Assembly: GCA_903828975.1 (NCBI GenBank)
Contig: CAIKOD010000015.1
Location: forward strand, 1-48,271
Reading direction: 5' to 3'
Source: an uncultured Methanomicrobiales archaeon
GTDB lineage: Archaea > Halobacteriota > Methanomicrobia > Methanomicrobiales > Methanospirillaceae
DNA length: 48,271 bases
The notes beneath the pieces are model-generated. The model worked only from the letters and a program-made list of their open reading frames with translations, had not been told where the DNA came from and did no database searches. Shown here in pieces: positions 3,550 to 29,662 of this stretch (its first letter is position 1; every line of letters starts with the position of its first letter). A program made the translations under genes and the position numbers.

Positions 3550-3714
3550 TTAGCCACAATCTGTAGCGTTGATGGCAACAATGTAGTAAGGATCCGTGAT
3601 GATCCCCCATTTCTTGTCAGAATATATCAGAAGTGTCTTTGAGTGGGTAATCCGGAACCCTTCAATGAGATAGAAGCTTAACTTCCGTGCGGCTCCAATA
3701 GGAAATAAAAACAA
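3550..3714 (-). CDS. Short open frame, possible C-terminal gene remnant
   Basis: The 479-base gap between two glycan genes contains a 54-codon minus-strand frame from TTG 3714 to the stop at 3550-3552. Its end, KKWGIITDPYYIVAINATDCG, has a protein-like residue composition, but I recognise no family. An in-frame stop just upstream (3715-3717) prevents extension into the glycosyltransferase, which itself ends at 3718. It may be the tail of a lost glycan gene or a chance frame. The rest of the gap (3239-3549) is AT-rich with nothing recognisable. Confidence 0.25.
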   Translation of the reverse strand: MFLFPIGAARKLSFYLIEGFRITHSKTLLIYSDKKWGIITDPYYIVAINATDCG

Positions 3715-10049: not shown

Positions 10050-11513
10050 TTAGTGGGTATATGACCTTCGATCCCTTTGCCCTGAGGACCGTTGCCCACC
10101 CCTGTTGTTACTTGCGGGGTGCGGGCTCTTGTACGCCTCCCTTCTCCGGGGAGGCCTGTTGTTCCGCTCCCGTTTCTCATCATCCCTTGGGATTGGAGCC
10201 TGGGATGGAGAATCAATCTTTGGCCGGGCCTTGTCCGTCATAAAGAGGAGCGCCGCGGCAAGGTCAAGCGACGTGAATTCCTCGCCCATCATTGCCTGGG
10301 CACGCAGGCGGTAATTATCAAGGTCTTCCTTCTCGATAGCTTCCCGTATTTTTGTAAGTGCCTGGAGTGTCCGCTGCTCCTCAAGGTCCTGGTCACTCGG
10401 GATGAAGTCGGGTGTTATCCTCACGTTTGCATACCGCTGTATGTCACGGAGCTTCCAGACTTCTTTGCCTGACACGAAGGTAAAGGAGCGTCCTGATCTT
10501 CCTGCGCGAGCAGTCCTCCCGATCCGGTGGACGTAATATTCCGGGTCCTGTGGAACATCAAAATTGAATACCGCTTCAATATCATCGATATCTAATCCAC
10601 GGGCAGCGACATCGGTCGCGATGAGGATGTCCGTCACACCACTGCGGAACTTAGCCATTACACGTTCCCGCTGGCTCTGGCTCATATCCCCGTGGAGGCC
10701 CTCTGCCGCGTAACCTCTTGAATTAAGGCGGCTCGTTATTTCATCGACCCGCCGTTTGGTATTGCTGAAAACCAGCGATAACTTGGGGTTATAGCGGTCA
10801 AGGAGCCGGCACAATGCCTCGATTTTGTCGCCCTCCCTCATTTCGTAGTAGAACTGCTCAATCGTAGGTACCGTGAGCTGGGCATGGACTACCTTGACAT
10901 GTTTCGGGGTCCTTTGGTACTTCTTTGCCAGTTCCATGATTGGCGCGGCCATGGTCGCAGAGAACAGGACGGTCTGCCTTTTTTCGGGCGTTCTCCCAAG
11001 AATGTCCCCGATATCGTCACGGAACCCCATATCTAGCATCTCGTCTGCCTCGTCAAGGACGACAACCTTAACATTGGAGAGGTCAAGTGACCGGCGGTGA
11101 AGGTGGTCTATGATCCGCCCGGGTGTACCGATAACGACCTGTACACCTTTTTTCAGTGCGGTGAGTTGCCGTTCAATTGGCTGGCCGCCGTAGACTGGGA
11201 TGATCATGATACCCGGGAGGTACTTACCAAGTTTGGCGAGCTCCTCGGAGACCTGGATGGCAAGTTCGCGGGTCGGGCACATGACAAGGGCCTGCACCCG
11301 GCGGTCATTCTGATCTATCTTCCCGAGCAGCGGGAGACCATAGGCAGCGGTCTTGCCGGACCCGGTATGGGCCTGGCCGATTACATCGTGGCCTTCGATG
11401 AGCATGGGTATTGCCAGTGCCTGGATAGGCGTCGGTTCTTCGAACCCGAGGTCAGTGATAGCCTTCTCGAGCTCCTTTGACAGTTCAAGGTCAGGAAATG
11501 ATATTGTTTTCAT
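10050..11513 (-). CDS. DEAD-box ATP-dependent RNA helicase
   Basis: From the ATG at 11513 the protein has 487 residues and all core motifs: Q motif (FEEPTPIQ), motif I AHTGSGKT (48-55), TPGR, DEAD in VLDEADEML, SAT, and in the second RecA domain ATDVAARGLDID and HRIGRTARAGR. The C-terminal tail is Arg/Gly/Pro-rich and probably binds RNA. It would unwind structured RNA in ribosome assembly or cold adaptation. A longer frame from 11579 adds 22 residues that do not fit the family; the shorter start is preceded by GGTGAACCACCT. The gene is monocistronic and marks the border of the repeat island that begins upstream of it. Confidence 0.9.
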   Translation of the reverse strand: MKTISFPDLELSKELEKAITDLGFEEPTPIQALAIPMLIEGHDVIGQAHTGSGKTAAYGLPLLGKIDQNDRRVQALVMCPTRELAIQVSEELAKLGKYLPGIMIIPVYGGQPIERQLTALKKGVQVVIGTPGRIIDHLHRRSLDLSNVKVVVLDEADEMLDMGFRDDIGDILGRTPEKRQTVLFSATMAAPIMELAKKYQRTPKHVKVVHAQLTVPTIEQFYYEMREGDKIEALCRLLDRYNPKLSLVFSNTKRRVDEITSRLNSRGYAAEGLHGDMSQSQRERVMAKFRSGVTDILIATDVAARGLDIDDIEAVFNFDVPQDPEYYVHRIGRTARAGRSGRSFTFVSGKEVWKLRDIQRYANVRITPDFIPSDQDLEEQRTLQALTKIREAIEKEDLDNYRLRAQAMMGEEFTSLDLAAALLFMTDKARPKIDSPSQAPIPRDDEKRERNNRPPRRREAYKSPHPASNNRGGQRSSGQRDRRSYTH

Positions 11514-11688
11514 AGGTGGTTCACCATAGACCACTCCGGACCATGTAACTTCCAAGGATACGTGAGAATGTATGACCACTCGCAGAAAAATGAAATAATT
11601 GGCCCGTTTGATCGATGTTATACATAGGTGCTCCCGGGTTAAGAGTGTTGGGGTGGAGGTAATTGTGATACAAAAAAACTTCGAACAG

Positions 11689-11822
11689 AATCACAGCAAC
11701 GGGGGTGGGCGGGATCACCGAATCTTACTCTGATTCCTCATCAACCCCCTTTGCCCCCTATATATTCCTGCTGAGAATCACGAAAAGCAGAGAAACCCTA
11801 TTGGGGTCGTCGAGCCGGTGGG
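11689..11822 (-). repeat. Tail-repeat copy A (diverged)
   Basis: This is the most diverged copy of the ~216-bp repeat family. It keeps the left block (GGTGGGCGGGATCACCGAA), the TTCCTCATCAACCCCC segment and the right block ACCCTATTGGGGTCG. The core has drifted to CTATATATTCCTGC. It precedes the first TA pair. Confidence 0.65.
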
Positions 11823-12469: not shown

Positions 12470-12580
12470 TTCCAAGCCTCCTCCTTTCGCCCCTCCTTGT
12501 TCAAGCCACCGATCCCAAACAGGGCGGGAAGCCCTATTGGGATCGCCCTAACGGCAGTGGACAAATGAGATTGTTAAAGT
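12470..12580 (-). repeat. Tail-repeat copy B (core partly lost)
   Basis: Copy B begins four bases after the toxin stop. It keeps GCCTCCTCCTTTCGCCCCTCC and the right block GGCGGGAAGCCCTATTGGGA, but the conserved core between them is replaced by TTGTTCAAGCCACCGATCCC. It separates TA pairs 1 and 2. Confidence 0.7.
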
Positions 12581-12783
12581 TAATTAGGTTTACACAAAAT
12601 TTTGTCAGGGCGAATATCAGGACACGATTTGATACCCGTAAACATCACCCAGTTAATGCTTCCGATGCCCTGTTAATCAGAAAGAACGAAACAAATTTAG
12701 GTAAAAAAGACTAAAAAGTATATTTGTTCCAAAAGAGCATTTTGTCCAAATGACACAGTAACAACGTAGTAAAGGGAGTACAT

Positions 12784-13062
12784 ATGGTAAGAAAAGGTGA
12801 CCAAACGACTGAAAAGGTTCTCGTTACTCCGGCCACCAAGCAGGAGCTGAACGCTATTAAACTGCCGGGAGAGAGATACGGAGATGTCGTTGCCCGGTTG
12901 GTGCGGGAACGAAAACAACAGGACTATATCGCCCATTTATTAAATGTTGCGAAGGAAGGCGATTTCGTACGCATGGACAGTGATGAGGAATATACCGAAA
13001 TCAAGGATGAGGTGAAGCGTTCTGCACCTCGAGATAGAACGGCATGTTCTCCAATACATTAA
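12784..13062 (+). CDS. Antitoxin of RelE-type TA pair 2 (extended C-terminus)
   Basis: The first 75 residues (TEKVLVTPATKQELNAIK, then RYGDVVARLVRE and the acidic EGDFVRMDSDEEYTEIKDE) match the short antitoxins of pairs 3 and 5. The reading frame then continues for about 17 residues (VKRSAPRDRTACSPIH) across the beginning of the toxin gene and ends at 13060-13062, so the two genes overlap by about 41 bases. In sibling pairs the antitoxin stops right at the toxin start, so a frame change or lost stop is likely here. A GGGAG sequence lies before the ATG, and two TTTGT-CCAAA-like sequences further upstream may be operators. Confidence 0.7.
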   Translation: MVRKGDQTTEKVLVTPATKQELNAIKLPGERYGDVVARLVRERKQQDYIAHLLNVAKEGDFVRMDSDEEYTEIKDEVKRSAPRDRTACSPIH

Positions 13063-13279
13063 CAATCTGCCGGATAAAGACCGTCGGATAATCAAGGAAC
13101 ACCTGGTTCAGCTTGAAGATCCGATCAATGCAAGGGATGTGGAATTACTGCGCGATGGAGTATGTCGTATACACATTGCTCATTCATACACGACATTCTT
13201 TGTCGTGTTGCCTGACAGGATCCGAATCCTGGATGTGTTGACAATCGAGCAAGCCCACAAGAAGTATCAACGGGTTTGA
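13022..13279 (+). CDS. RelE/ParE-family toxin, TA pair 2, non-canonical start
   Basis: In the +1 frame relative to the antitoxin, an 85-codon stretch encodes LHLEIERHVLQYINNLPDKD at the start, then CRIHIAHSYTTFFVV and ILDVLTIEQAHKKYQRV at the end, a complete RelE-like toxin closely resembling those of pairs 3 and 5. No ATG, GTG or TTG is available at its beginning. The first usable codon is CTG at 13022, with an excellent GAGGTGA ribosome-binding site six bases before it. Either CTG is used or a one-base change has damaged the original start. It may be active, weakly expressed or dead. Confidence 0.65.
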   Translation: MHLEIERHVLQYINNLPDKDRRIIKEHLVQLEDPINARDVELLRDGVCRIHIAHSYTTFFVVLPDRIRILDVLTIEQAHKKYQRV

Positions 13280-13374
13280 GAGAAACTGTATAGCCGTCAG
13301 CCAATTAAGAATAGCACAGTAAACACAACCAAGATCCCGTGGTCGACCTGGGACGAGTGAGAAAGTAAATGTAT

Positions 13375-13565
13375 CAGGGTTTATTATCACAACCCCTGTT
13401 CATCTTGGTGGGCGGGATCACAGAACCTTACCCAAGTTTCCTCATCAATCCCCTGAACTTCTCCCTCATCATCCCCAGCCTCCTCCCTTTTGTCCTCCAT
13501 ATACATCCAGCCACCTATGACGAACAGCACGGAAAGACCGGATCGTCTGGACGACGGGGATCATG
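13375..13565 (-). repeat. Tail-repeat copy C (nearly full)
   Basis: Left end TTTATTATCACAACCCCTGT, core CATATACATCCAGCCACC, right block CACGGAAAGACCGGATCG. On the minus strand it reads VIGGWMYMEDKREEAGDDEG in frame. It lies between TA pairs 2 and 3. Confidence 0.85.
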
Positions 13566-13745: not shown

Positions 13746-13940
13746 ATGAATCTTATAAAAAGAATTCCTGTCACCGAATCTGTCTGGAAAGAACTCGCAG
13801 AGATGCGGTCTGCAGGCCAGACCTATGATGAACTTCTTGCTGAGATGATCGAACTTCGTAAGAAGCGCCGGCTCGTTGATGATATCCATCATTCGATTGA
13901 GGATGATGATTTTGTTCCGCTTTCGGAGATAATAGAGTGA
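13746..13940 (+). CDS. Antitoxin of RelE-type TA pair 3
   Basis: The 64-residue protein has an N-terminal strand LIKRIPVTESVWKELAEM, a short helix pair around QTYDELLAEMIELRKKRR and an acidic tail IEDDDFVPLSEIIE. It resembles the antitoxins at 12784 and 19802 (KRIPVT-x-W signature) and should bind DNA and the toxin. Its TGA overlaps the GTG start of the toxin. An AT-rich promoter (TTTAAATATTTACC, about 13714-13727) precedes it. Confidence 0.75.
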   Translation: MNLIKRIPVTESVWKELAEMRSAGQTYDELLAEMIELRKKRRLVDDIHHSIEDDDFVPLSEIIE

Positions 13941-14227
13941 GTTTCCAGGTTCTTATTAAGCGTAAATCTGTTGAGGCAATCAACGAGCTGCCAAGCAAGA
14001 CCCGTCGTATTGTCCATGATACTCTCAAGTCTCTCGAGCAGGACCCGTATCCCGGTACCGGTGGTGACAAAAAGTTATTGCATCAGGAAGAAGGGATAGA
14101 AGTGTACAGATTCCATATCGGGAGAAGCTATACGGCATTCTATACAATTGATATCAGAAGCCATGTTGTCCAGGTTCATGATGTCATGACAATCGGACAG
14201 GCACATAAAAGATATGGCCGGATTTAA
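13937..14227 (+). CDS. RelE/ParE-family toxin, TA pair 3
   Basis: The 96-residue protein starts with GTG at 13937, overlapping the antitoxin stop by four bases. It shows the family layout: an N-terminal strand and helices (KSVEAINELPSKTRRIVHDT), the central strands YRFHIGRSYTAFYTID, and the C-terminal VMTIGQAHKRYGRI. The HKRYGR ending is shared with pairs 2 and 5, so these three toxins form one subfamily. The expected activity is ribosome-dependent mRNA cleavage. Confidence 0.85.
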   Translation: MSFQVLIKRKSVEAINELPSKTRRIVHDTLKSLEQDPYPGTGGDKKLLHQEEGIEVYRFHIGRSYTAFYTIDIRSHVVQVHDVMTIGQAHKRYGRI

Positions 14228-14286: not shown

Positions 14287-14455
14287 CCCCAACGTGGTGA
14301 TCAGGTTTCAGAATCCACAATCCCCTCTACCTCTACCACCTCGTCCCCTTCCTCCTCCTTACGTCCTTCCATATACATCCAGCCGCCAATCACGAATAAT
14401 ACGGGAAGCCAAACCGGGATCACATGAACTGTGGAAAACGAATGACTCCCGATAA
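14287..14455 (-). repeat. Tail-repeat copy D
   Basis: Core CATATACATCCAGCCGCCAA and right block ACGGGAAGCCAAACCGGGAT are clear; the left end is diverged. On the minus strand the core reads VLFVIGGWMYMEGRKEE. It lies between TA pairs 3 and 4. Confidence 0.85.
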
Positions 14456-14540
14456 TTGATTTAGGCTATCACAATTCCAGAACATATCGAATAAGTGGAA
14501 CAGGGGGAGAACTCCGGATTCCTATTTAACAGAAAAGAGG

Positions 14541-14558: not shown

Positions 14559-14577
14559 ATTGTTATATCTGATATAT

Positions 14578-14772
14578 ATGTCACAGTCCGGATCAACCAC
14601 AATTGCCATCTCTGTAGAGACAAAGGAAATGATAAGGACACTTGGCGAAAAAGGTGAAACATATGATGCAATAATTCGCCGCATATTCCACAAAGTCGGG
14701 ATGAAAGACCTTGATTCACGCTGGAATTTAATTCTCGAAAACGATGAGTTTCTTTCACTGGAAAATCTCTGA
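14578..14772 (+). CDS. Antitoxin of RelE-type TA pair 4
   Basis: The 64-residue protein starts at the ATG at 14578, following the AT-rich operator-like repeats. TTIAISVETKEMIRTLGEK and ETYDAIIRRIF form a ribbon-helix-helix-like DNA-binding part, and the tail NLILENDEFLSLENL should contact the toxin. Its TGA overlaps the toxin ATG (TGATG). It is a distinct sequence type from antitoxins 1-3, so the array has collected different TA lineages. Confidence 0.75.
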   Translation: MSQSGSTTIAISVETKEMIRTLGEKGETYDAIIRRIFHKVGMKDLDSRWNLILENDEFLSLENL

Positions 14773-15035
14773 TGTTTGAGATTATAGTTTCGAAAACCTT
14801 TCAGAAACAGTTTCATTCACTTTCCCAGGATGATCAGAAACGTATTCGACAAGGACTGCCAATTCTGGCAGAAGATCCCTTCACCCCGAGATCCGGTGCA
14901 GATATAAAATCTTTACAACAGACAGTACCAAAAAAATACCGGTTAAGAATCGGAGAAGTGAGAATTATTTATTCAATACGTGACGAAAAGATACTGATTA
15001 TTGAGGTATTCAGAAGGCGACAGGGATATTCCTGA
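14772..15035 (+). CDS. RelE/ParE-family toxin, TA pair 4
   Basis: This 87-residue toxin begins MFEIIVSKTFQKQFHSLSQD, followed by the helical pair, LRIGEVRIIYSIRDEKILII as the core hairpin and the basic EVFRRRQGYS end. It is a RelE-type endoribonuclease by fold. It overlaps the antitoxin stop by one base, so translation is coupled. It is followed within about five bases by repeat copy E. Confidence 0.85.
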   Translation: MFEIIVSKTFQKQFHSLSQDDQKRIRQGLPILAEDPFTPRSGADIKSLQQTVPKKYRLRIGEVRIIYSIRDEKILIIEVFRRRQGYS

Positions 15036-15037
15036 TC

Positions 15038-15252
15038 ATAGAGTTTATTATCACAAACCCTGTTCACAGGAGTGGGCGGGCGGGATTATAGAGGATTACT
15101 CTGATCCATCCCCAATCCCCTGCACCTCTCCCTCCTCGTCCCCGGCCTCCTCCCTTCGCCCCTCCCTATACATCCAGCCACCAATCACAAATAATACGGG
15201 AAGCCCGATCGGGATCGTATGAACGCCCCAAACGGATGTGATTGTAAAAGTA
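15038..15252 (-). repeat. Tail-repeat copy E (full length)
   Basis: A full ~215-bp copy running from GAGTTTATTATCACAAACCC through the core CTATACATCCAGCCACCAAT to AAGCCCGATCGGGATCG. On the minus strand it reads VLFVIGGWMYREGRREEAGD in frame and ends at a stop. It is followed directly by copy F. Confidence 0.9.
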
Positions 15253-15425
15253 TCGAGGGTATATTATCGCAATCCCGGTAAAAAGGGGTGATTGGGAAGG
15301 GGTTATGAAGGATTATTCTGACTCATCCCCGATATCCTTCACCTCGTTCTCTTCGTCCCCGGCCAGGAAGCCCGATTGGGATTGCAGTACCGGCGGGGGA
15401 CGGGTGAGATCGTAAAAGTTGGTTA
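15253..15425 (-). repeat. Tail-repeat copy F (about 49-bp internal deletion)
   Basis: Copy F keeps both outer parts but lacks the core: CGTCCCCGGCC joins directly to AGGAAGCCCGATTGGGAT. The offset to copy E at the right block is 167 bp instead of ~216, which defines the deletion. Confidence 0.85.
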
Positions 15426-15509: not shown

Positions 15510-16256
15510 CTAAAGCTGAAAATATTTATCCTTCTTCCCGGTACTTTTTTCAGTGTGGTGCTGCTTCACCATGAGACCCGCGCGGAGAAGGCTGTCAAAA
15601 GTACCGGCATCACTCCAGTACCCTTCTAAAATTGAAAAATTCATCAATCCTTTTCGGACGTATTCATTGTTTACATCAGTGATTTCAAGCTCGCCCCGAC
15701 CAGATGGTTTTAGTGTTTTAATGATATCAAAGACCTCTGCATCATACATGTATAATCCGGTAACCGCAAAATTTGATTTTGGTTCCTTTGGCTTTTCTTC
15801 AATGGAGAGAATCCGGTCACCTTCAATTTCAACAACCCCAAACCGGCGGGCGTCCGGAACTTCTTTAAGGAAAATCATGGCGCCGGATGAAAAGGATTTT
15901 GTTGCATCCCTGATAGAGTCCTGAAAAATATTATCGCCGAGAATGACTGTTACAGGTTCTCCGTCGGCCCAGTGCTCAGCTAAACCTAAAGCATGTGCAA
16001 TTCCCCCGGCAGTTTCCTGGATTTCATAGGTGAAATGCGCACCCCATTCGGTTCCCGATCCCAGCAATTCCAGAAAATGTCCTGCGTGCCCCCGTCCGGA
16101 CACGATCATGATTTCAGTAATAGCGGCATCAAGAAGTGTCTGTAATGGATAGTAGAGCATGGGTTTGTCATAGACCGGAAGAAGATGTTTATTGGTCACT
16201 TTGGTCAGGGGCATTAATCGTGACCCGGTCCCGCCGGCAAGAATTACTCCTTTCAT
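15510..16256 (-). CDS. rfbA: Glucose-1-phosphate thymidylyltransferase
   Basis: The 248-residue enzyme has the nucleotidyltransferase signature GVILAGGTGSRLMPLTKVTN at its start, then KPMLYYPLQTL, the metal-binding GDNIF loop and EIEGDRILSIEEKPKEPKSN. It makes dTDP-glucose from dTTP and glucose-1-phosphate, the first step of dTDP-rhamnose synthesis. At 248 residues it is of the short form, lacking the extended C-terminus of ~290-residue bacterial enzymes. Its ATG overlaps the rfbD stop (ATGA), so it is the last gene of the operon rfbC-B-D-A. Confidence 0.9.
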   Translation of the reverse strand: MKGVILAGGTGSRLMPLTKVTNKHLLPVYDKPMLYYPLQTLLDAAITEIMIVSGRGHAGHFLELLGSGTEWGAHFTYEIQETAGGIAHALGLAEHWADGEPVTVILGDNIFQDSIRDATKSFSSGAMIFLKEVPDARRFGVVEIEGDRILSIEEKPKEPKSNFAVTGLYMYDAEVFDIIKTLKPSGRGELEITDVNNEYVRKGLMNFSILEGYWSDAGTFDSLLRAGLMVKQHHTEKSTGKKDKYFQL

Positions 16257-17071
16257 CGTGGATATCCTGTTGAATGTGTCTTTTTATTTATTAAATATTC
16301 ATTGAGAGCTGGTTTCCAGTGACGGAATTGCGTGATTTTAGTATTTGTGAGTACGGAGCAGTGCGGTCTCTTTGCTTTTCTGGGAAATTCCGCTGTCGTA
16401 CACGGAACCGCATTGGGTATAAAATCACATGCAAATTCATACCAGGTGCATGTTCCCTCATTGACACCATGGTAGATTCCGGGTATTAACGAAATAATTT
16501 CTAACGTCTTTTTCGCGAGATCAACAGTATAGGTTGGTTTTGTGGTCTGATCATTCACAACTCTGACTTCCGGAAATTGCGCAGAAAGAGTGAGGATCGT
16601 ATCAACAAAATTTTTTCCATGTTCACCAAAGAGCCCGGATGTACGAATCATACGGTAGTTTTCCATATTATTTATGATATTCATCTCGCCAAGCAATTTT
16701 GATTCACCGTAGGCGTTAATAGGATCGGGAATATCGTCTTCCACATATCCCATTTTAGAGCCATTAAAAATATAATCCGTACTATAATGGACCAGGACTG
16801 CTCCGACCTCATTACAGGCGCAGGAAATATACTGGAGCGATTCTCCGTTTACCGCAAATGCCTGTTCCCGGTTATCTTCACACCCGTCAACGTCGGTGTA
16901 ACCTGCAGCATTGATGACAATTGATGGATGTAACTCTTCAATAAAATCATTGATGGCATGTTCATCGGTGATATCCAGGTCATGGCCTTTCAAAATTGCT
17001 TCTGGAAATACGTACTGTAGCGCATGTCCGAGCATACCATACGCTCCGAGAATAAGGACCCGGGTTTTCAT
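16253..17071 (-). CDS. rfbD: dTDP-4-dehydrorhamnose reductase
   Basis: This 272-residue SDR enzyme carries the Rossmann motif ILGAYGMLGHAL (7-18), the NAAGYTDVDGCE segment typical of RfbD, and the catalytic Tyr-Lys pair in YGESKLLGE. It reduces dTDP-4-keto-rhamnose to dTDP-rhamnose with NAD(P)H. It overlaps rfbB at its start and rfbA at its end by four bases each. Nothing in it is broken, unlike its two upstream neighbours. Confidence 0.9.
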   Translation of the reverse strand: MKTRVLILGAYGMLGHALQYVFPEAILKGHDLDITDEHAINDFIEELHPSIVINAAGYTDVDGCEDNREQAFAVNGESLQYISCACNEVGAVLVHYSTDYIFNGSKMGYVEDDIPDPINAYGESKLLGEMNIINNMENYRMIRTSGLFGEHGKNFVDTILTLSAQFPEVRVVNDQTTKPTYTVDLAKKTLEIISLIPGIYHGVNEGTCTWYEFACDFIPNAVPCTTAEFPRKAKRPHCSVLTNTKITQFRHWKPALNEYLINKKTHSTGYPR

Positions 17072-18044
17072 TCACTCCTCGTATGCTTAAGGGGTTTCCA
17101 CCACCATTCGTTGTCAATGTACCATTGAACGGTACGTTCAAGTGCCTGGTCAAAATTATACGCAGGGGACCACCCGAGTGAATGCAGCTTGGTGATGTCG
17201 AGCGAATAACGGAAATCATGGCCAGGACGGTCATCCACGTATTCAATATGAGTTTCATCCTTTCCAAGGAGGGCAAGAATCTTTTTGGTAATCTCAATAT
17301 TAGGGATCTCCACCCCGCCTCCGATATTATAGATCTCTCCTGCCATTCCATGGTGTAGAACATGATCAATAGCGCTGCAATGATCGAGCACATAGAGCCA
17401 GTCACGTACATTCAGGCCCGATCCATATACCGATACTTTTTTCCTTCCAGTAAATTGGTAACAAAAAACGGGATCAACTTTTCAGGAAACTGGTACGGCC
17501 CGTAATTATTCGTACAACGGGTAATAATGACCGGGAGATGGTGAGTGATAAAATAGGAACGGGCAAGGAGGTCCGAGCTTGCTTTACTGGAAGAATATGG
17601 GCTGGATGGATTCAGAATATCCCGCTCGGAAAACGACCCTGAATCAATACTTCCATAGACTTCATCGGTTGAAATGTGGATAAAACGCCTGACACCGTGT
17701 TTCCATGCCTGGTCGAGGAGTGTGAATGTACCGAGTACATTGGTCCTGACGAATAAGGAGGCGTCAGAAATCGAGCGGTCCACATGGCTTTCTGCAGCGA
17801 AATGAACGATTGTGTCAATATTGTTGTTCTTTACCGCCGCTGCGACAATGACCTCATTACAAATATCCCCCTGTATAAATTGATAATGGGGATTTTTACT
17901 GATATCTGTGAGATTTTGAGGATTTCCGGCATACGTCAGGCTATCGAGATTTGTGATGAAATAGTCAGGATGTTTTTCCAGCATGTGCCGGATAAAGTTG
18001 CTCCCGATAAAACCGCAACCACCGGTTACCAGACATTGCACCAT
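17068..18044 (-). pseudogene. rfbB: dTDP-glucose 4,6-dehydratase, split by a -1 frameshift
   Basis: The first part (18044 to the stop at 17412) encodes GGCGFIGSNFIRHMLEKHP, the STDEVYGS motif and the catalytic YSSSKASSD, ending out of phase with YRYMDRA. The second part, in the -1 frame, continues with VSVYGSGLNVRDWLYVLDHC through to SLGWSPAYNFDQALERTVQW. Joined, they make a normal dehydratase of about 325 residues (dTDP-glucose to dTDP-4-keto-6-deoxyglucose). The break is exactly at an in-phase A-AAA-AAG heptamer, so the gene could be rescued by -1 ribosomal frameshifting or slippage, may be a true pseudogene, or may contain a homopolymer sequencing error. Confidence 0.85.
17436..17442 (-). 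other. Slippery heptamer A-AAA-AAG in rfbB
   Basis: On the minus strand the zero-frame codons GGA AAA AAG contain the classical -1 slippery heptamer in correct phase. Slipping one base back continues with GTA TCG GTA TAT GGA, which restores the conserved dehydratase sequence. Confidence 0.5.
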
Positions 18045-18064
18045 GTTTCAGGACCTGACAACTA

Positions 18065-18543
18065 TCATCCGTGTTTCAAACCCGGTGCAAGTCCCCAGTC
18101 ATAGGGGATTTCCAGAGAATCCGGGGGTATTCTGAATTCATCGGGATCAGAGTAATTATACGGTAATGTGGGGATACTCAGGAAAAATGCAGTTTCCGTA
18201 CCAATTGCCTTAAAACCGTGATAAATCCCGGGGGGAACACTGATCAGCATCGGGTTTTTTTCACCGATAAACAACTCGATCAGTGTATTATAGGTGGGAG
18301 ATTCTTTCCGGGCATCATAGAGCACGACTTTCATCATTCCGTGAATGCAGGTGAAATTATCGGTCTGTTTTTTATGATAATGCCATGCCTTGACGACACC
18401 GGGATATGCCGTGGTAACATACACCTGTCCAAACTGTGAGAAAAGACATCGTCATCACAGCGGAGGACCTCCATGAGCCATCCACGTTCGTCTGCGGCTA
18501 CCTTGAGATGTTTAAAGACCACGCCCTGTATTTTTTCTACCAT
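18065..18543 (-). pseudogene. rfbC: dTDP-4-dehydrorhamnose 3,5-epimerase, frameshifted
   Basis: The N-terminal part (from ATG 18543) encodes GVVFKHLKVAADERGWLMEV, then shifts at about 18430-18440. The rest is one frame away and reads FGQVYVTTAYPGVVKAWHYH, the cupin core of RfbC with its catalytic His, through PPGIYHGFKAIG to the C-terminus. The join TCT-CA-CAG-TTT looks like a duplicated CA dinucleotide within an expected FSQFGQVYV. Restored, the enzyme would be about 159 residues. It would epimerise dTDP-4-keto-6-deoxyglucose, acting between RfbB and RfbD. It is the first gene of the operon; without correction rhamnose synthesis from this locus should fail. Confidence 0.8.
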
Positions 18544-18805
18544 TCAATACCTCATGTAGTATTTAAATCTAAAATTTTAACCGATTCCTGCATTACAGGA
18601 TATTATTGCTGGGTATTTAGTTCCTTAAGAAAATAAATCGTCTTACTCACCATAAATAAATGCTGGTTAATCGTGATTTTTTCTTTATTGATGTCAAAGA
18701 GGAGAGGTACTAAAAAATGCGATACCGATACCGCAGAATGGTGTATGAAAAAATGCACGGCAGGATAAATTCCTGAACAAATGGGGATATCTGACCGATG
18801 AACGG

Positions 18806-19366
18806 TTATTGCATTCCAATTTTTTCTTTGATTTGCTGGATGTCTAACTCAATTGCGGATAGTTTCCTGTCAAGGTAAGAACGAAGATCTGTCCGCAGAT
18901 CATGAATTTCACCAGTGATGGATGTTTCCATCCTATCCATTTTCTGAAGCACCTGATCCTGTTTCTCTAACATCTGGTCCTGCTTTCCTAACATCTGGTC
19001 CTGTTTTTCCAGCAGTCGGTCCTGTTTGGTATCAATACTAATAATAGCCGGGATTCCTTTGGTTAGCTGTTCAACCTGAATGAGATGCATAAAATCGCTG
19101 ATGCTGATAACATAGCCATCATACGTTCCAAAGGAGATATTAAAAACACGTGCATCTGGTGGATACTCGTCATTGACACCGGATTGGAATGCATCGATCA
19201 TGGCTGGCTCTCCTTCAATGCGCACGATTACCTGCTGCTCCCCATCCGATACCACATTGCGAGCATCAAATCGCTGAACTCCCTGTTCCAGTGCTTTCTG
19301 TAGCAGGAAAACACGGTACCCTACACCATGAACTCTCTTCCCGGTGATAACGGCCTGCATTTTCAT
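18806..19366 (-). CDS. Acylphosphatase-like domain fused to a heptad coiled coil
   Basis: From the ATG at 19366 the protein has 186 residues. Residues 1-90 look like acylphosphatase: MQAVITGKRVHGVGYRVFLL contains the V-x-GVGYR loop whose Arg binds phosphate, followed by RNVVSDGEQQVIVRIEGEP. From about residue 110 there is no known domain but a long helix with four near-identical heptads (EKQDQML) and a second coiled-coil part ending IQQIKEKIGMQ. It may bind acyl-phosphates or another phospho-ligand as an oligomer; catalysis is not certain. A longer frame from 19441 adds residues encoded by repeat copy G and is unlikely. Confidence 0.7.
   Translation of the reverse strand: MKMQAVITGKRVHGVGYRVFLLQKALEQGVQRFDARNVVSDGEQQVIVRIEGEPAMIDAFQSGVNDEYPPDARVFNISFGTYDGYVISISDFMHLIQVEQLTKGIPAIISIDTKQDRLLEKQDQMLGKQDQMLEKQDQVLQKMDRMETSITGEIHDLRTDLRSYLDRKLSAIELDIQQIKEKIGMQ
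18951..19027 (-). repeat. 21-bp tandem repeat encoding QDQMLxK heptads
   Basis: About 3.7 units of 21 bp lie inside the acylphosphatase-like gene; each encodes one heptad of the coiled coil. Because the unit is 21 bp, copy-number change would lengthen or shorten the helix without a frameshift. Confidence 0.8.
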
Positions 19367-19432
19367 GTTAAACAACAATATTTTGTTTGTCTTGATTAAA
19401 TAGTCTGCTGATGGAACATAGTAATGGCTTAG

Positions 19433-19577
19433 GGTCTGCACCTCTTCGTCTCTTCGACCCGGCCTCCTCCTTTTGCCCGTCCATATACATCCAGCCGCCT
19501 ATCACGAATAATACGGGAAGCCAGGTAGGGATCGCATTAACGGCGGATAACGAATATGATCGCAAAAGTTGATTCGT
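19433..19577 (-). repeat. Tail-repeat copy G
   Basis: Core CATATACATCCAGCCGCCTA, then TCACGAATAATACGGGAAGC and the right end GATCGCAAAAGTTGATTCG. On the minus strand it reads VLFVIGGWMYMDGQKEEAG, after which the acidic tail is frameshifted. The left third is missing. It lies between the acylphosphatase gene and TA pair 5. Confidence 0.85.
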
Positions 19578-19756
19578 AAGGCAATCACCATTCAGGTGCA
19601 TCGAGGGAGGGAAAACACAGATCTACCTCATAGACCCTTTTGCCTGAATAATGTAATCCATATTAACTAAATCTCCTGTTTTTAACAAAGGTATCAACGC
19701 ATCCCAAAAACTGTCGATTACCAAGAGCCACAAGACATAAATCATAAATTATTAAA

Positions 19757-20302: not shown

Positions 20303-20427
20303 CGTCTGTTATCTCCGGAAACTCTTTTTTTTAATTATTCCTGGTCTCGTCCCAGCAACTAAATTGTTCATCCACACTTCGAATATGCACGAGTCTATTA
20401 AACCCGACGGATATCGAAAAAGATGTT

Positions 20428-20632
20428 TGGGGAAATACTATCGCCAGCACAGCTCACTGGGGCACGCGGGATCACAGCACCTCACCCAGATTCTTCATCA
20501 ATCCCCTACACCACTTGCTCCTCGTCCCCGACCTCCTCCTTTTACCCCTCCCTATACATCCAGCCACCTATGACGAACAGCACGGGAAGCCCGATTGGGA
20601 TCGCAATACCGGCGGGAGAACGAGTTAGGTAA
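20428..20632 (-). repeat. Tail-repeat copy H (full length, tail interrupted by a stop)
   Basis: The copy runs from TTTGGGGAAATACTATCGCC through CTATACATCCAGCCACCTAT to AAGCCCGATTGGGATCGC. On the minus strand the tail reads VLFVIGGWMYREG and then hits TAA, so the coding tail is interrupted even though the DNA is well conserved. Confidence 0.9.
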
Positions 20633-20692: not shown

Positions 20693-20914
20693 TTATGACA
20701 GCCATTTTTCGCGGGTTATTTCTCCTTGTTTTAATATTCTGACGAGTAAATCTACACCAATCTGTGATCGGTGAGGGTTTGGTATAGTAAGCACGATGGA
20801 CTCTTTTATCATATAGGGATGTCTTCCACCTGCGAAAGGTCCATCAAATCCGAATGAGCGTAACCTTTTTATTAATTCGTCCCAGCTAACCGGGGATAAT
20901 TTATGCCCTGACAC
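20693..20914 (-). CDS. hicA: HicA-family mRNA interferase toxin
   Basis: The 73-residue protein has the dsRBD-like HicA fold: VSWDELIKRLRSFGFDGPFA, then GGRHPYM with the catalytic His, and the closing LLVRILKQGEITREKWL. HicA degrades mRNA independently of ribosomes. Its start overlaps the end of hicB by 14 bases, giving the order hicB-hicA on the minus strand. It is the only non-RelE TA unit within the repeat array, and lies between copies H and I. Confidence 0.85.
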   Translation of the reverse strand: MSGHKLSPVSWDELIKRLRSFGFDGPFAGGRHPYMIKESIVLTIPNPHRSQIGVDLLVRILKQGEITREKWLS

Positions 20915-21167
20915 CGGGTTCGAACCTTCCCGGACATTGTATTGTTATCCCATCAACGGGTGGTATGGGGATGCCTTTCTGTATTCGAATAATAATCCAG
21001 CCTTCAATAACCTCAGCCAGGTTTTCCCTGCATTCTTCAAGGCTCTTACCCGTTGCCCAGACACCCTGTAACTGGGATATTTCGCCATAATAAGGCTCTT
21101 CATCCTTAATTATTTCATAATGTGCGTGCGATAACGCCGCATTAATGTATTTGACGATCAATTCCAC
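20901..21167 (-). CDS. hicB: HicB-family antitoxin
   Basis: The 88-residue protein has the partial RNase-H-like HicB core: HYEIIKDEEPYYGEISQLQG, WATGKSLEECRENLAEVIEG and an IPIPPVDG end. It lacks a recognisable extra C-terminal DNA-binding domain, so it is the short HicB type. It precedes and overlaps hicA and should bind and inhibit it. Confidence 0.85.
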   Translation of the reverse strand: MELIVKYINAALSHAHYEIIKDEEPYYGEISQLQGVWATGKSLEECRENLAEVIEGWIIIRIQKGIPIPPVDGITIQCPGRFEPGVRA

Positions 21168-21298
21168 TACCCTGTTAATAATTGTAGAGTTAATGTGCTA
21201 TTTAGGTTTTCACGTTTTTTGGAGAAAGGATCTCAATTTGGGGAATTAACTCCCCTACCTTACCGCGGATAAAATTGGAAGTATTGATAGTAAAAAAA

Positions 21299-21360
21299 CA
21301 GCAGGGAAGCCCAATCGAGATCGCTTAAACGGCGGGGACGAGTGAGATCGTAAAAGATGA
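21299..21360 (-). repeat. Tail-repeat copy I (right part only)
   Basis: Only the right third remains, from GCAGGGAAGCCCAATCGAGA to GATCGTAAAAGATGA. It begins a tandem run with copies J, K and L; the offset to the same point in J is 215 bp. Confidence 0.85.
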
Positions 21361-21576
21361 TTGGGGAAATACTATCGCAATCACAGCTCACCAGAGTAAG
21401 CTGGATATGGAACCTTACCCGGTTTCCTCATCAACCCCCTGCACCTCTCCTTCCTCGCCCCCGGCCTCCTCCCTTTGGCCCTCCATATACATCCAGCCGC
21501 CTATGACGAATAGCACGGGGGAAGCAAAACCAGGATCGGTGTGCCGGCGGATAACAAATGAGATCGCATGAATACA
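21361..21576 (-). repeat. Tail-repeat copy J (full length)
   Basis: A full unit with core CATATACATCCAGCCGCCTA at 21484. The minus strand reads VLFVIGGWMYMEGQREEAGG and runs in frame to a stop after VQGVDEETG. The core-to-core distance to copy K is 217 bp. Confidence 0.95.
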
Positions 21577-21791
21577 TTGGAGAAAATATCACAACCCCTG
21601 TTCACCGTGGCAAGCGAGATCGCAAAGGGCCTAACCCAATTTATCCAGCAATCCCCTGCACCTCTTGCACCTCGTCCCCTACCTCCTCCTTTCGTCCCTC
21701 CATATACATCCAGCCACCCATCACGAATAGCACAGCAAGCCCTATTGGGATCGTATTAAAGGCCACGATCGAAGGAGATCGCACTAATACA
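21577..21791 (-). repeat. Tail-repeat copy K (full length)
   Basis: A full unit with core CATATACATCCAGCCACCCA at 21701 and right block AAGCCCTATTGGGATCG. The core-to-core distance to copy L is 216 bp. Confidence 0.95.
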
Positions 21792-22000
21792 GTGGGGGTG
21801 CTATCGGAATCGCAATACACAGGAGTGGGAAGGTGGGATCAAAGGCCTTATCCAGTTTCCTCATCAATCCCCTGAACCTCTTGCACCTCGTCCCCGGCCT
21901 CCTCCTTTCGCCCCTCCATATACATCCAGCCACCTATCACGAATTGCACGGGAAGACATACCTAGATCGATAGACCGGCGGCAAATGAATGTGGTGACAA
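21792..22000 (-). repeat. Tail-repeat copy L (full length)
   Basis: A full unit with core CATATACATCCAGCCACCTA at 21917. The minus strand reads FVIGGWMYMEGRKEEAGDEV and continues in frame to TAA after GIDEETG. The right block is altered (GGAAGACATACC). It is followed by the GT39 gene. Confidence 0.95.
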
Positions 22001-22142: not shown

Positions 22143-23696
22143 ATGTCATCGCAATATTACAAATTCAAAAAAAATCTTGAAACCCAATCAAATTATCTAT
22201 TGCTTTTATTTATCACTTTATTAGGTGCCTTCTTAAGATTCTATAATCTAGGAAAGAAAAGTCTCTGGTTTGATGAACTTGCCCAAGTAACAATTTCCAA
22301 AACCATTATTCACGACCTTTCACTTCCACAAATGGGATTCTTGCAAGGAATGTGGTGGGAACTATCACCGCCACTTGATTATTTTATTACGCATTTTATG
22401 TTTGTATTTGGATCTTCTGAGTGGATTTTACGATTTCCTGCGGCAATATTTGGTGTTTTATCAATCCTCGCAATATTTTTTTTGGCTAAGGAATTCTTTG
22501 GGGCTCCTGTGGGCGTAATCAGTGCGTTTCTGCTGTCGATATCCCCAATGCATATCTGGTATTCACAGGAAGTGAGGGTTTATTCGCTATTCATGTTCCT
22601 TACAATTCTTTCATTCTTATTTTTAAGTCAGATTACAAAAAATGATAATACTTGGTATTGGTTTCCACTAACCCTCATAAATCTTGCTTTAATTTATACA
22701 CATTATTTTGGTTTTTTTGTGATCCTGATCCAGGGGGTATATTTATTGTTAAGATTTTTCCTAACTAGCAATGTTGAGGCGAAACGGCTTTCGCTACAAA
22801 ATAAAAATTTGAAAACATTGTTGATTTGGATAATCTCCTCTCAAATTGTAGCTCTTCTCTTTATTCCATGGCTGGATATTTTCAGATTTCAAACGTCAGA
22901 TTTTAGAAAACCTCTCTACTATGGATTGCAGGCTAATCTGGAATTTTTCAATTCTTTACTGCGCTATTTTTCATCCTTCAATTCGCCGGAATTTGCAGGT
23001 TTAATTTCAACCATTATTTTAATTGTATTTTTCATTTTAGGGGGATTATGGGTAACAAGAAAGAGTCGTGACACCGGAGTATTAATTTTCATCTGGATTT
23101 TCCTGCCAATTTCCCTGTTATTTATGATTACCTTAATACATGGACCTGTTACAACCACAAGAAATTTAATTTTTATTTTACCTGCGGTGTTTATCATTGT
23201 TGCTAAAGGTGTAAAAGAAGCAGCTGCCGTGATCGGTCAATTATTAACATTTTCAAATCAAAAAAAAGCAGGCTCAAAACAAAAACAAAATTGGATTATA
23301 GTTCTATTTCTCGTGGTAATTTTTCTCTGTAATCTTAATCCGCTTATGCATCAATATTCGGTGAATAAAGCAGACTGGAGAGGAACTGGGCAATTTTTAA
23401 GTGAAAATGTTGGAAGTGATGAATTAATTGTATTGATTCGGGATCAACCTAATTATTTACGCTTTTATTATTCCGGTAATGCTACGATCGTTTCAATTCC
23501 AGATCATCAGTACGATTGGATGTCTCTTATCCCCAAAAACAATTATTCGAAAATATGGTTTGTTCCATCACCAGATTTTGGGGTCAATGATCCAAGATTA
23601 AAGGAATGGCTTAATGAGAATAGCATGCTAGAAAATGAAAAATTTGGAATTTTTAGTTATTCCCCAGATCCTTCATCTTCGATCTCTTTTTCCTGA
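22143..23696 (+). CDS. Membrane glycosyltransferase, GT39/PMT-like (GT-C fold)
   Basis: The 517-residue protein has roughly 11-12 hydrophobic helices. The first extracytoplasmic loop carries the Asp-Glu pair D44/E45 (LWFDELAQV) typical of GT-C enzymes that use polyprenyl-phosphate sugars, and SPMHIWYSQEVRVYSLFM matches the GT39/ArnT group. A soluble C-terminal part follows the last helix (about residue 400). It would transfer a sugar from a dolichyl-phosphate carrier to protein or lipid outside the membrane. The gene is clearly more AT-rich than the flanking housekeeping genes, suggesting transfer. Its last ~17 codons lie inside repeat copy M on the opposite strand. Confidence 0.85.
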   Translation: MSSQYYKFKKNLETQSNYLLLLFITLLGAFLRFYNLGKKSLWFDELAQVTISKTIIHDLSLPQMGFLQGMWWELSPPLDYFITHFMFVFGSSEWILRFPAAIFGVLSILAIFFLAKEFFGAPVGVISAFLLSISPMHIWYSQEVRVYSLFMFLTILSFLFLSQITKNDNTWYWFPLTLINLALIYTHYFGFFVILIQGVYLLLRFFLTSNVEAKRLSLQNKNLKTLLIWIISSQIVALLFIPWLDIFRFQTSDFRKPLYYGLQANLEFFNSLLRYFSSFNSPEFAGLISTIILIVFFILGGLWVTRKSRDTGVLIFIWIFLPISLLFMITLIHGPVTTTRNLIFILPAVFIIVAKGVKEAAAVIGQLLTFSNQKKAGSKQKQNWIIVLFLVVIFLCNLNPLMHQYSVNKADWRGTGQFLSENVGSDELIVLIRDQPNYLRFYYSGNATIVSIPDHQYDWMSLIPKNNYSKIWFVPSPDFGVNDPRLKEWLNENSMLENEKFGIFSYSPDPSSSISFS

Positions 23697-23799
23697 TTTT
23701 TATATCCCCCCATATACATCCAGCCTCCGATTACGAACAACACGGGAAGCCAAACCGTGATCATATAAACGGCGGGTGACGGGATTGATCGCACTAATG
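23646..23799 (-). repeat. Tail-repeat copy M (overlaps the GT39 3' end)
   Basis: Core CATATACATCCAGCCTCCGA at 23711 and right block ACGGGAAGCCAAACCGTGAT. The minus strand reads VLFVIGGWMYMGGYKNQEKE and stays open through IEDEGSGE to a TAA at the expected place. The core-to-core distance to copy N is 215 bp. Confidence 0.9.
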
Positions 23800-23995
23800 A
23801 AGGTGGTGATATCACAAGCACGGTACACAGGTGTAGGTGGGCGGGATTGTGGAGGATTAATCTGACTCATCGTCGATATCCTGCGCCTCTTCCTCCTCGT
23901 CCCCGGCCTCCTCCTTGTGCCCCTCCATGTATATCCAGCCACCTATTACGAATAGTACTGGAAGCCCGATTGGGATTGCTGTTCCGGCTGGACCG
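23800..23995 (-). repeat. Tail-repeat copy N (3' part of an intact gene)
   Basis: Core CATGTATATCCAGCCACCTA at 23926 and right block AAGCCCGATTGGGATTGC. This copy is the in-frame 3' end of the 187-residue membrane-protein gene that follows on the minus strand, and identifies what the whole repeat family encodes. Confidence 0.95.
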
Positions 23996-24420
23996 TGAAA
24001 AAGGGGGCCATATTGGATAAATATTGAAATTAGAAATAGAACAGATGAAGTGCAGATAAAAATTCCTGCCGTCTTCATTTTTTTATATACCGAGAATTGA
24101 TTATTGAGGGTAACGATCAGCGATGCTAATATCAGCATAAATCCAAGAATCCATACTATAATCGAAATAGCACTCTGTTTTTGGATTATGCCGTTAATAA
24201 CGTAGCCAAATTCCTGATTGATTGGAATTATTGAGGTGCCCAAGTGTGTATCTTGAAATCTGAAAAGAATGAATTGAATCCCGGTTCCAAGGAAATCACC
24301 AATGATATAGATTGTTATTGGAATGCACAGAGAAATAAGAATCAATAATCTTGAGAAATTAATCTTTTCCATATATAATATTAAGCGGTTAGTAAAAATA
24401 ATCTTTTTTAGATGTTGCAT
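23857..24420 (-). CDS. Four-helix membrane protein carrying the repeat-encoded tail
   Basis: The 187-residue protein has four predicted transmembrane segments: LLILISLCIPITIYIIG, AISIIVWILGFMLILAS, GIFICTSSVLFLISIFI, and the repeat-encoded IPIGLPVLFVIGGWIYMEG, followed by an acidic tail KEEAGDEEEEAQDIDDESD. The first three helices are encoded by AT-rich DNA like the GT39 gene, while the last helix and tail come from GC-richer repeat copy N, so the gene looks chimeric. I do not recognise a family and cannot assign a function. It is the only long gene in the window that uses the tail in frame. Confidence 0.7.
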   Translation of the reverse strand: MQHLKKIIFTNRLILYMEKINFSRLLILISLCIPITIYIIGDFLGTGIQFILFRFQDTHLGTSIIPINQEFGYVINGIIQKQSAISIIVWILGFMLILASLIVTLNNQFSVYKKMKTAGIFICTSSVLFLISIFIQYGPLFHGPAGTAIPIGLPVLFVIGGWIYMEGHKEEAGDEEEEAQDIDDESD

Positions 24421-24530
24421 ATTCGGTTGAATACGAGATACTTCTTTCTGTAAAAATTGTAACTCAATGCCAATATATTGACGAATCGCCTTAACCTGAC
24501 ATTATACGAATATACTAAAAAAAGTTAAGA

Positions 24531-24962
24531 TTAGATATATGTATCCAATAGTACCTGAGAAGTACCGTCGGTAAATGTTCCAGTTACTATGAGATGATCT
24601 TTACCGTTTGCTGGAGTAGTCCCTGATGGGATTTTTATAGTGCTACCTACCGGTTTCAATAACTCAGGTTGATGAAGGGCGTTATACAACTGTTCAGTTC
24701 CATTATTATAAACGGCCGTCACATTGAAGGAGGACACATCCTGATTATCCGGGCCCCCATTGTTAGTGACCGTGACATTTTGTCCCTGCTTTGTTGCAGT
24801 GACTGCGACACTCCTTGTCTTACTAACGTTCCCTGCCATTCCGAACACGAATGCTGCAATCACTGCAGCGAGGATGACGGTAATTGCGACCATCAGGATG
24901 ACACCGATGACCGGCGACACTGCATCCTCACTTCCCTTTCCATATGTTGACATCTTTTTCAT
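24531..24962 (-). CDS. Archaeal type IV pilin (Pilin_N domain)
   Basis: The 143-residue precursor has a short charged leader (MKKMSTYGKGSEDA), then VSPVIGVILMVAITVILAAV, the archaeal Pilin_N signature where prepilin peptidase cleaves before the hydrophobic helix. The remaining 100 residues are a beta-rich head with Asn/Thr-rich segments such as NVTVTNNGGPDNQDVSSFN, which contains possible N-glycosylation sequons. It would be assembled into adhesion pili or similar filaments on the cell surface. It is monocistronic with its own promoter. The adjacent glycan genes could supply sugars to modify it (inference). Confidence 0.85.
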   Translation of the reverse strand: MKKMSTYGKGSEDAVSPVIGVILMVAITVILAAVIAAFVFGMAGNVSKTRSVAVTATKQGQNVTVTNNGGPDNQDVSSFNVTAVYNNGTEQLYNALHQPELLKPVGSTIKIPSGTTPANGKDHLIVTGTFTDGTSQVLLDTYI

Positions 24963-27920: not shown

Positions 27921-28021
27921 ACCCGGTACCCACCTTTCAGTACCGTAATCTCAAACCTGGCTCCCTTCCCTGCTTCGCCGGTCTCGGCAACAGTCATCCC
28001 AGTAAGTGCAAGAATTTCTCT
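27921..28021 (-). repeat. Duplicated 3' end of the sensor-kinase gene
   Basis: These 101 bases match the last part of the kinase gene (28635-28735) at 93 of 101 positions with no gaps. On the minus strand they read REILALTGMTVAETGEAGKG in frame, as in the kinase C-terminus. No kinase sequence is present upstream of it. Together with the intact copy it brackets TA pair 7. Confidence 0.9.
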
Positions 28022-28627: not shown

Positions 28628-29662
28628 TTACGCAACCCGGTACCCACCTTTCGGCACCGTAATCTCAAACCTGGCTCCCATCCCTGCTTCGCCGGTCTCG
28701 GCAATCGTAATCCCGGTCAGTGCAAGAATTTCTCTCGCAAGGTACAGTCCATACCCTCGTTTGCTTCCAAAACCGCGGGTGAAGATCCGTTCCTTATCCT
28801 CAACCGGAACACCTGCACCGTTGTCACAAAAGGCGATGACAAGTCCGCCAGGTTGTTCTGAAGAAGTAATCGTGATCGTGTTGGCCGTTTTTCCGTGCAG
28901 GACGGTATTTTCGATAAAATTTGAAATAATTTTCCTGATCAATGGGTCTGCGAAGACCCTGAGCCCCGGGTTTATCCCGACTTCCACCTTCATCCCCGGG
29001 TGGTCGATGATCGACGCAGTCTCCCGGATCACAACCGGCAGGTCGACCCACACCGGCACATTGACGCCGACATCCTGGTAGTCCTTGGTGAATGCAACCT
29101 GTCTGCGGATCGTCTCGGCCGCACCTTCTTCTCTTGCAATGAACTCTTTCAACGTGTCGTCCGTAACCATATCGTGCGAAAGTTCCAGGTAGCCAAGCAG
29201 GATAGTCAATTGGTTCATGAGATCATGACGCGTGATACTATTGAACCGGTTCAGCATCCGGACAGCCGCGTTTATGGCTTTCTCCGAACGTATCCGGTCA
29301 GAAACGTCACGGAAGGTTACAATCACCGTTCCGGGACTTCCGGGACTCCCGGGGAGCAGGGAAATCAGAAACTCACATACTGAAAGGGAGCCATCCTTCT
29401 TTTGGAGACTGAATTCACGGACCTCCTCCACACCGGAAGACAGGGGTAGACTTACGTATTCCCTGAACCTGTCATGATCGGTCGCAGACAGGATATGAGT
29501 AATATTCTTACCAAAAAGTTCGTCTGCAGCCTGATAACCCGTTATTTCAAGCGCCTTCCTGTTCAGGAGGATAATTACCCCTGCAGTATCCAATATGGCC
29601 ATCCCCCCTGGCGCCTGCTCAAAAATTACCCGGTATAGTTGATTATTATCTGGTTCCATCAT
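28628..29662 (-). CDS. PAS-domain sensor histidine kinase
   Basis: The 344-residue soluble protein has a PAS domain (about 8-125, YRVIFEQAPGGMAILDTAGV), a phosphoacceptor helix with ITRHDLMNQLTILLGYLELS (the His of RHDL), and an HATPase domain with NFIENTVLHG, DNGAGVP and the GYGLYLAREIL box. It should autophosphorylate on His in response to an intracellular signal; no transmembrane part and no adjacent response regulator are present. This is a common methanogen kinase type. A 101-bp duplicate of its 3' end lies 600 bp downstream. Confidence 0.9.
   Translation of the reverse strand: MMEPDNNQLYRVIFEQAPGGMAILDTAGVIILLNRKALEITGYQAADELFGKNITHILSATDHDRFREYVSLPLSSGVEEVREFSLQKKDGSLSVCEFLISLLPGSPGSPGTVIVTFRDVSDRIRSEKAINAAVRMLNRFNSITRHDLMNQLTILLGYLELSHDMVTDDTLKEFIAREEGAAETIRRQVAFTKDYQDVGVNVPVWVDLPVVIRETASIIDHPGMKVEVGINPGLRVFADPLIRKIISNFIENTVLHGKTANTITITSSEQPGGLVIAFCDNGAGVPVEDKERIFTRGFGSKRGYGLYLAREILALTGITIAETGEAGMGARFEITVPKGGYRVA

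Follow-up and report, generated by a model that had tools for sequence, protein, structure and literature searches.

Ends of a four-helix membrane-protein gene, interleaved with toxin-antitoxin and other modules, at a probable displacement hotspot in Methanomicrobiales

Behind an intact gene for a four-helix membrane protein, an archaeal genome carries a row of copies of that gene's 3' end, with toxin-antitoxin (TA) modules and other genes between them. Such rows probably arose by serial displacement of the gene's 3' end through homology-anchored recombination, at what would be a hotspot for foreign DNA in the order Methanomicrobiales. The stretch of DNA analysed, here called the window, is 48,271 nucleotides long; it forms contig C15 in the draft genome (G000; 2.58 Mb) of an archaeon from that order. 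Both this genome and that of a sister species (G003) are draft metagenome assemblies, and three relatives are referred to by name: Prado136 (L036/L059), the Lac Pavin MAG (L034/L060) and the Alinen sediment MAG (L030/L061).

The array is made of gene ends on one strand

The minus strand of the window holds about a dozen diverged copies (~80% identical), every one of them downstream of the intact gene, designated gene N. What is copied is the final ~100-150 bp of this 187-aa gene, the portion encoding helix 4 and an acidic tail. A genome-wide DNA search with positions 23646-24420 found 14 places, all on C15 or on contig C72, with E down to 3e-40, and a repeat-profile search recovered the window copies at E 1e-47 to 2e-9, on the minus strand only, from 23.99 to 11.69 kb. 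The gene, its neighbors and the orphan copies are as follows, in the order in which they are read.

24531..24962 (-): archaeal type IV pilin-like gene, directly upstream of the four-transmembrane (4TM) gene (Pfam Pilin_N, E 6e-20)
23857..24420 (-): gene N, 4TM, an intact ORF of 187 aa; the repeat derives from a 3' end of its type
23705..23790 (-): orphan gene end, truncated, immediately after gene N (repeat profile, model positions 234-305; BLAST)
21298..21999 (-): three tandem ~214-bp units and a truncated fourth
20412..20632 (-): orphan unit (repeat profile)
19436..19609 (-): orphan unit, 3'-truncated (repeat profile)
15036..15425 (-): two orphan units, the first with an internal deletion
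14316..14479 (-): orphan unit (repeat profile)
13288..13562 (-): orphan unit and a portion of another (repeat profile)
12473..12588 (-): truncated orphan unit (repeat profile)
11689..11822 (-): degenerate gene end, the most distal, marking the old 3' end beside the conserved flank
10050..11579 (-): conserved flank, a DEAD-box helicase (Pfam DEAD, E 1e-54), directly behind the 4TM gene in Prado136

The original prediction had described a shared (V/L)FVIGGW-(M/I)-YM-EG pattern with an acidic tail, and this pattern proved real when the readings of the copies were checked; its view that the array is built from gene ends is supported as well. The open tails and stops that it reported are present in several orphans, but other orphans are frameshifted or carry in-frame stops. 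The truncated orphan at ~23705-23790 lies inside the 23646-24420 segment with which that prediction dealt, and has an antisense overlap with the 3' end of the plus-strand glycosyltransferase ORF (22143-23696).

Gene N is the only full-length gene with this ending within the window, as predicted, but not in the genome, because contig C72 carries a second intact gene with the motif ending (L029:5321-5860, ...FVIGGWMYMEGRKEKVGDEEEEVQGIDEESG). A wider search for proteins with the same ending returned this C72 gene and placed members of the 4TM family in 88 of 199 genomes of the order Methanomicrobiales. No Pfam family scored above cut-off for gene N, and DUF7549 was weakly matched by 8 of 16 of its relatives. 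A conserved-peptide search with the full 4TM family alignment found no conserved stretches to use; one with five close members identified the relatives. We rejected a viral origin of the 4TM gene, as no relatives were confirmed in viral contigs.

A pilin-like gene precedes the 4TM gene in many relatives. Between G000 and Prado136, DNA of the pilin N-terminal end can be aligned at 73% and that of the 4TM gene 3' end at 83%; the C-terminal part of the pilin and the body of the 4TM gene (window 24049-24790 against L036 2808-3438) give no DNA alignment. We read the pilin/4TM locus as recombining or fast-evolving, a hypervariable segment flanked by conserved ends, because an unalignable middle lies between alignable ends while the helicase flank is 87.6% identical.

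The protein itself is apparently claudin-like, judging from predicted structure. Two AlphaFold2 models (pLDDT 80 and 81) have four helices and a five-stranded sheet, and both display the claudin superfamily trait of four transmembrane helices with a 4+1 stranded sheet. Foldseek searches with these models returned claudins, TARPs and GARLH4 (LHFPL-type) as leading matches, with a probability of 1.00 at the top and TM-scores of only 0.34-0.50 among them. The claudin W-GLW-C-C motif is absent, the first loop of the window protein having no Cys or Trp, and a sequence-profile search of solved structures gave nothing significant. With four helices and the N-terminus inside, the acidic tail is probably cytoplasmic.

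A relative lacks the array, and the layout recurs across the order

In Prado136, which belongs to the same genus (L036), the gene stops at 3606 and the flank begins at 3753, 147 bp later, matching the window from 11667 on at 87.6% over 1448 bp. In the window, the helicase flank begins beyond 12.1 kb of array, the distal end of which retains 44 bp of gene end. As the gene adjoins the flank directly in Prado136, the 3' end of the gene is exactly where the 12-kb array lies.

Recurrence was counted over 61 loci from the order Methanomicrobiales. Among 49 4TM ORFs, 13 have extra copies of their 3' end on the same strand; among the 652 other ORFs of these loci the count is 47 (Fisher p 9e-5). On the opposite strand, no copy of a 4TM gene end occurs. 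Wherever a locus has a clear full gene, its copies are downstream, a count biased by the mostly downstream DNA fetched for L066-L103; strand is the cleaner test, because these about 40 loci were sampled mainly downstream. Other genera and families of the order show the same layout: gene, then cargo, then displaced end. It is also seen in genomes of one or two contigs (G027, G032 and G110), and is therefore not an artefact of draft assembly. Minimal cases consist of the gene, HicBA and a displaced 3' end with its own tail (L068 and L071), or of the gene, AAA/DUF4276 and a displaced end (L031), and the sister species G003 has about 20 units across 12 kb.

Two further repeats were observed. Dense short same-strand repeats lie behind a fragment of a 4TM gene in L038 (G008:C80). 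Elsewhere in the window, a 101-nt direct repeat, 92% identical, occupies 27921-28021 and 28635-28735; the 3' end of a PAS/sensor-kinase-like ORF overlaps its second copy. That ORF was also flagged among the controls of the recurrence test, and the copy may be another displaced gene end of this sort.

Cargo is dominated by toxin-antitoxin modules, some shared between lineages

Across the arrays, cargo is mostly type II TA modules, with glycan and defence-like genes in addition. In the window it comprises the following.

22143..23696 (+): PMT_2 glycosyltransferase, its 3' end reaching the truncated orphan (Pfam PF13231, E 1.5e-13)
20693..21167 (-): HicA/HicB-like TA pair (Pfam HicA_toxin, UPF0150), common to the G003 array at 91% DNA identity
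19802..20302 (+): antitoxin-like ORF (weak VAPB_antitox) and putative RelE/ParE-like ORF, the latter with no Pfam match and its role taken from position and size
15510..19441 (-): rhamnose-type rfbA, rfbD, rfbB and rfbC, and an acylphosphatase-domain ORF (Pfam, translations)
14560..15035 (+): antitoxin-like ORF and ParE/RelE toxin (Pfam ParE_toxin, E 3.6e-7), nearest homologue in the G012 array
13746..14227 (+): VapB-like antitoxin ORF and putative toxin ORF (no Pfam match)
12784..13062 (+): VapB-like antitoxin ORF, inside 12518-13527, which is shared with the G003 array at 81% DNA identity
11909..12466 (+): DUF7557 antitoxin-like ORF and ParE toxin (Pfam ParE_toxin, E 4e-11)

Most TA genes of the window are antisense to the repeats, those of L034 (Lac Pavin) lie on both strands, and G003 has a TA module in nearly every gap between units. 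The rfbB and rfbC genes inside the array (17068-18424, -) are frameshifted, by decay or sequencing error.

The HicAB and VapB cassettes are colinear in the window and in G003; the window has an additional 7 kb separating them. At 91% identity against 87% for core DNA, the HicAB cassette may have been inherited vertically. The nearest relative of the window's RelBE cassette among 108 genomes of the family is in the G012 array; the two cassettes share 81% DNA identity, against 67-68% for core DNA of G000 and G012, and by this comparison the cassette has moved between lineages.

Orphans in the window have a coding past

The original prediction had proposed recent duplication or selection on the orphan tails, and neither fits the substitution patterns. 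The G000 orphans form a star, ~80% identical to one another and likewise to gene N, the C72 gene and the Prado136 gene. They stand no nearer to gene N (~72-85%) than to the C72 gene or another species' gene, which speaks against recent duplication of N. Differences between G000 orphans fall at 0.110/0.167/0.313 over the three codon positions, and substitutions private to a single orphan at 12/15/12. Since the old differences are biased to third positions and the private changes are not, these orphans are better read as former gene ends that were once in use and are now decaying, and their open tails as reflecting a coding past rather than current selection. Current coding selection on the orphans was rejected on the unbiased private changes, the frameshifts and the stops.

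Single remnants in ten other loci mostly keep an open frame as far as a stop of their own, and the acidic tail in that frame is often a different one; they differ from their own gene by 53/47/111 changes over codon positions (p 2e-8), a figure inflated by third-position changes on the gene's own branch; the orphan-orphan figure is unaffected by this. The units of G003 differ by 0.185/0.169/0.204 over codon positions, and 36 of 41 indels among them are frameshifting, a pattern that likewise points away from present selection. On these counts the G003 units appear to be amplified, decayed DNA, and much of that array would have to be later amplification, because its units have no coding history.

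Junction edges, recombinases and a model of serial displacement

In other genomes, the 5' edges of orphans take six or more different positions, and a shared stretch of 769 bp occurs; together these make a poor fit to one attachment core. In the two amplified arrays, 17 of 17 cargo-side unit 5' edges lie in one ~65-bp phase of the 214-bp unit (R 0.835, P<1e-5) and 3' edges are uniform (R 0.07), these edges being the ends of local alignments and hence soft. The fixed 5' edge could reflect shared descent of a bordered unit, a preferred joining site or a directional mechanism.

Among the other genomes tested, no array contig was found to carry a tyrosine or serine recombinase, and single-contig genomes have none near the array, in keeping with the original prediction that the array is no conventional mobile element. 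The exception is C72, where a tyrosine recombinase (PF00589, E 4e-16; L029:3891-5141, +) is flanked by the intact gene on one side and another gene end on the other; relatives of this integrase showed no linkage to the 4TM gene in other genomes. The C72 protein has a weak XerC-like match in the PDB (4a8e). The unit DNA shows no covariation (term +0.43), folds ordinarily, has no conserved fold and matches no known RNA family.

We favor serial displacement because the edges vary, recombinases are absent bar C72, and the units have no conserved fold. It is further backed by the downstream, same-strand orphans of many genomes, the array-free site in Prado136, the coding past of the orphans and the cassettes that arrays share. 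Incoming DNA would carry a relative's version of the gene and recombine with the resident gene through their homology, bringing a working new gene end and, behind it, new cargo. The other side would join illegitimately, inside or beside the old gene end, so that the old 3' end, still equipped with tail and stop, would be shifted downstream as an orphan and would then decay. Repeated events would leave a row of former gene ends with cargo in between, and in this genome and G003 the row would have been further amplified into ~214-bp units able to recombine with one another. Both the agent, RadA-type homology-anchored recombination, and the sequence of events are inferred. Two results count against the model: plain illegitimate joining predicts no fixed cargo-side 5' border of the kind seen in the amplified arrays, and the absence of coding history in the G003 units argues against displacement as their sole source.

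Alternative origins of the arrays

Integrases integrate in tRNA genes and restore their 3' end, and site-specific integrative elements that used this gene's 3' end as an attachment site, restoring it each time, would by accretion leave gene ends behind. The position of the C72 recombinase and the fixed 5' borders of the amplified units would both suit such elements, but we consider them unlikely, as the other genomes tested have no linked recombinase, the C72 integrase's relatives are not linked to the gene elsewhere, and scattered orphan edges with a 769-bp shared stretch are unlike one crossover core. The contrast between fixed cargo-side 5' edges and uniform 3' edges also prompts a reading, to our minds rather unlikely, in which the ~214-bp gene-end unit is a directional docking site that, unlike an integron, has a fixed 5' border and stores TA, glycan and defence modules downstream of a claudin-like surface gene of methanogenic archaea, through a recombinase in trans or host recombination. 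Plain tandem duplication of the 3' end, by slippage or unequal crossing-over, followed by random TA insertion and neutral decay, would explain why 214-bp units lie directly in tandem and why those of G003 evolve like non-coding DNA. As a general account it is decidedly unlikely: the G000 orphans once coded and resemble the adjacent gene no more than they do those of other species, and single remnants elsewhere keep intact alternative tails. As sole cause in G000 it is refuted by the third-position bias, and it may still explain the amplification in G003.

Silent cassettes that vary the gene's C-terminus by gene conversion, as in the pilin system pilS/pilE, would account for many in-frame alternative ends with differing acidic tails beside one expression locus behind a pilin; this is very improbable given private changes without codon bias, several frameshifts or stops, a tail that is probably cytoplasmic, and copies separated by cargo. 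An integron-type array, with attC cassettes and an integrase in trans, is the most far-fetched of these readings. Repeats in one orientation, mostly one small module between them, the many TA modules and the one-sided border resemble one, but the lack of covariation, the ordinary folding of the units, genes on both strands and array contigs without a recombinase do not.

Comparison with known systems

Serial displacement resembles what integrative elements do when they restore the 3' end of a protein gene, as e14 does in icd: the original 3' end is displaced beyond the insert and a working gene is kept. Here, unlike at icd, most loci have no linked integrase, and there is no single crossover point.

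The closest description comes from type VI secretion (T6SS) orphan effector/immunity arrays of V. cholerae and from Rhs loci, for which homology-facilitated illegitimate recombination has been proposed: a conserved upstream part anchors the exchange, a new module and 3' end arrive, and old ends with their partner genes are pushed downstream (PMC5361080). Shared with those systems are orphan 3' ends that lie behind an intact gene and point the same way as it does, an array-free relative (L036), cargo that has moved between lineages and, in G000, orphans that read as diverged former alleles; the G003 units differ in looking amplified. At the junctions, 5' edges vary in other genomes and are fixed in the two amplified arrays. 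Unlike those systems, the gene here encodes an archaeal 4TM protein with a conserved end and no toxin domain, the cargo is mostly general type II TA, and displaced ends have been amplified into 214-bp units.

Integrons and CALINs, including archaeal ones, are likewise linear series of small modules, often TA, with same-orientation repeats between them, whereas here the repeat is the end of a protein-coding gene and modules lie on both strands (PMC9668308). PF00589, the domain by which an integron integrase was sought, is absent from the array contigs except C72, and no attC-like conserved fold was found in the units by covariation and folding. The pdif (XerCD) modules of Acinetobacter plasmids also place TA modules between short repeats, which are Xer sites (PMC13141974), unlike the ~214-bp repeat here, derived from a gene end.

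The finding is real and goes beyond what was originally predicted, in that displaced gene ends are recorded at a hotspot of module uptake. Displacement arrays, so far proposed for bacterial toxin loci, would thus form in archaea too, at a conserved gene end, and because each orphan would be a former gene end, past recombination could be read from the arrays. The host gene, apparently pilin-linked and claudin-like, would merit interest independently, and the locus names a recurrent hotspot at which TA, glycan and defence-like modules would enter methanogen genomes.
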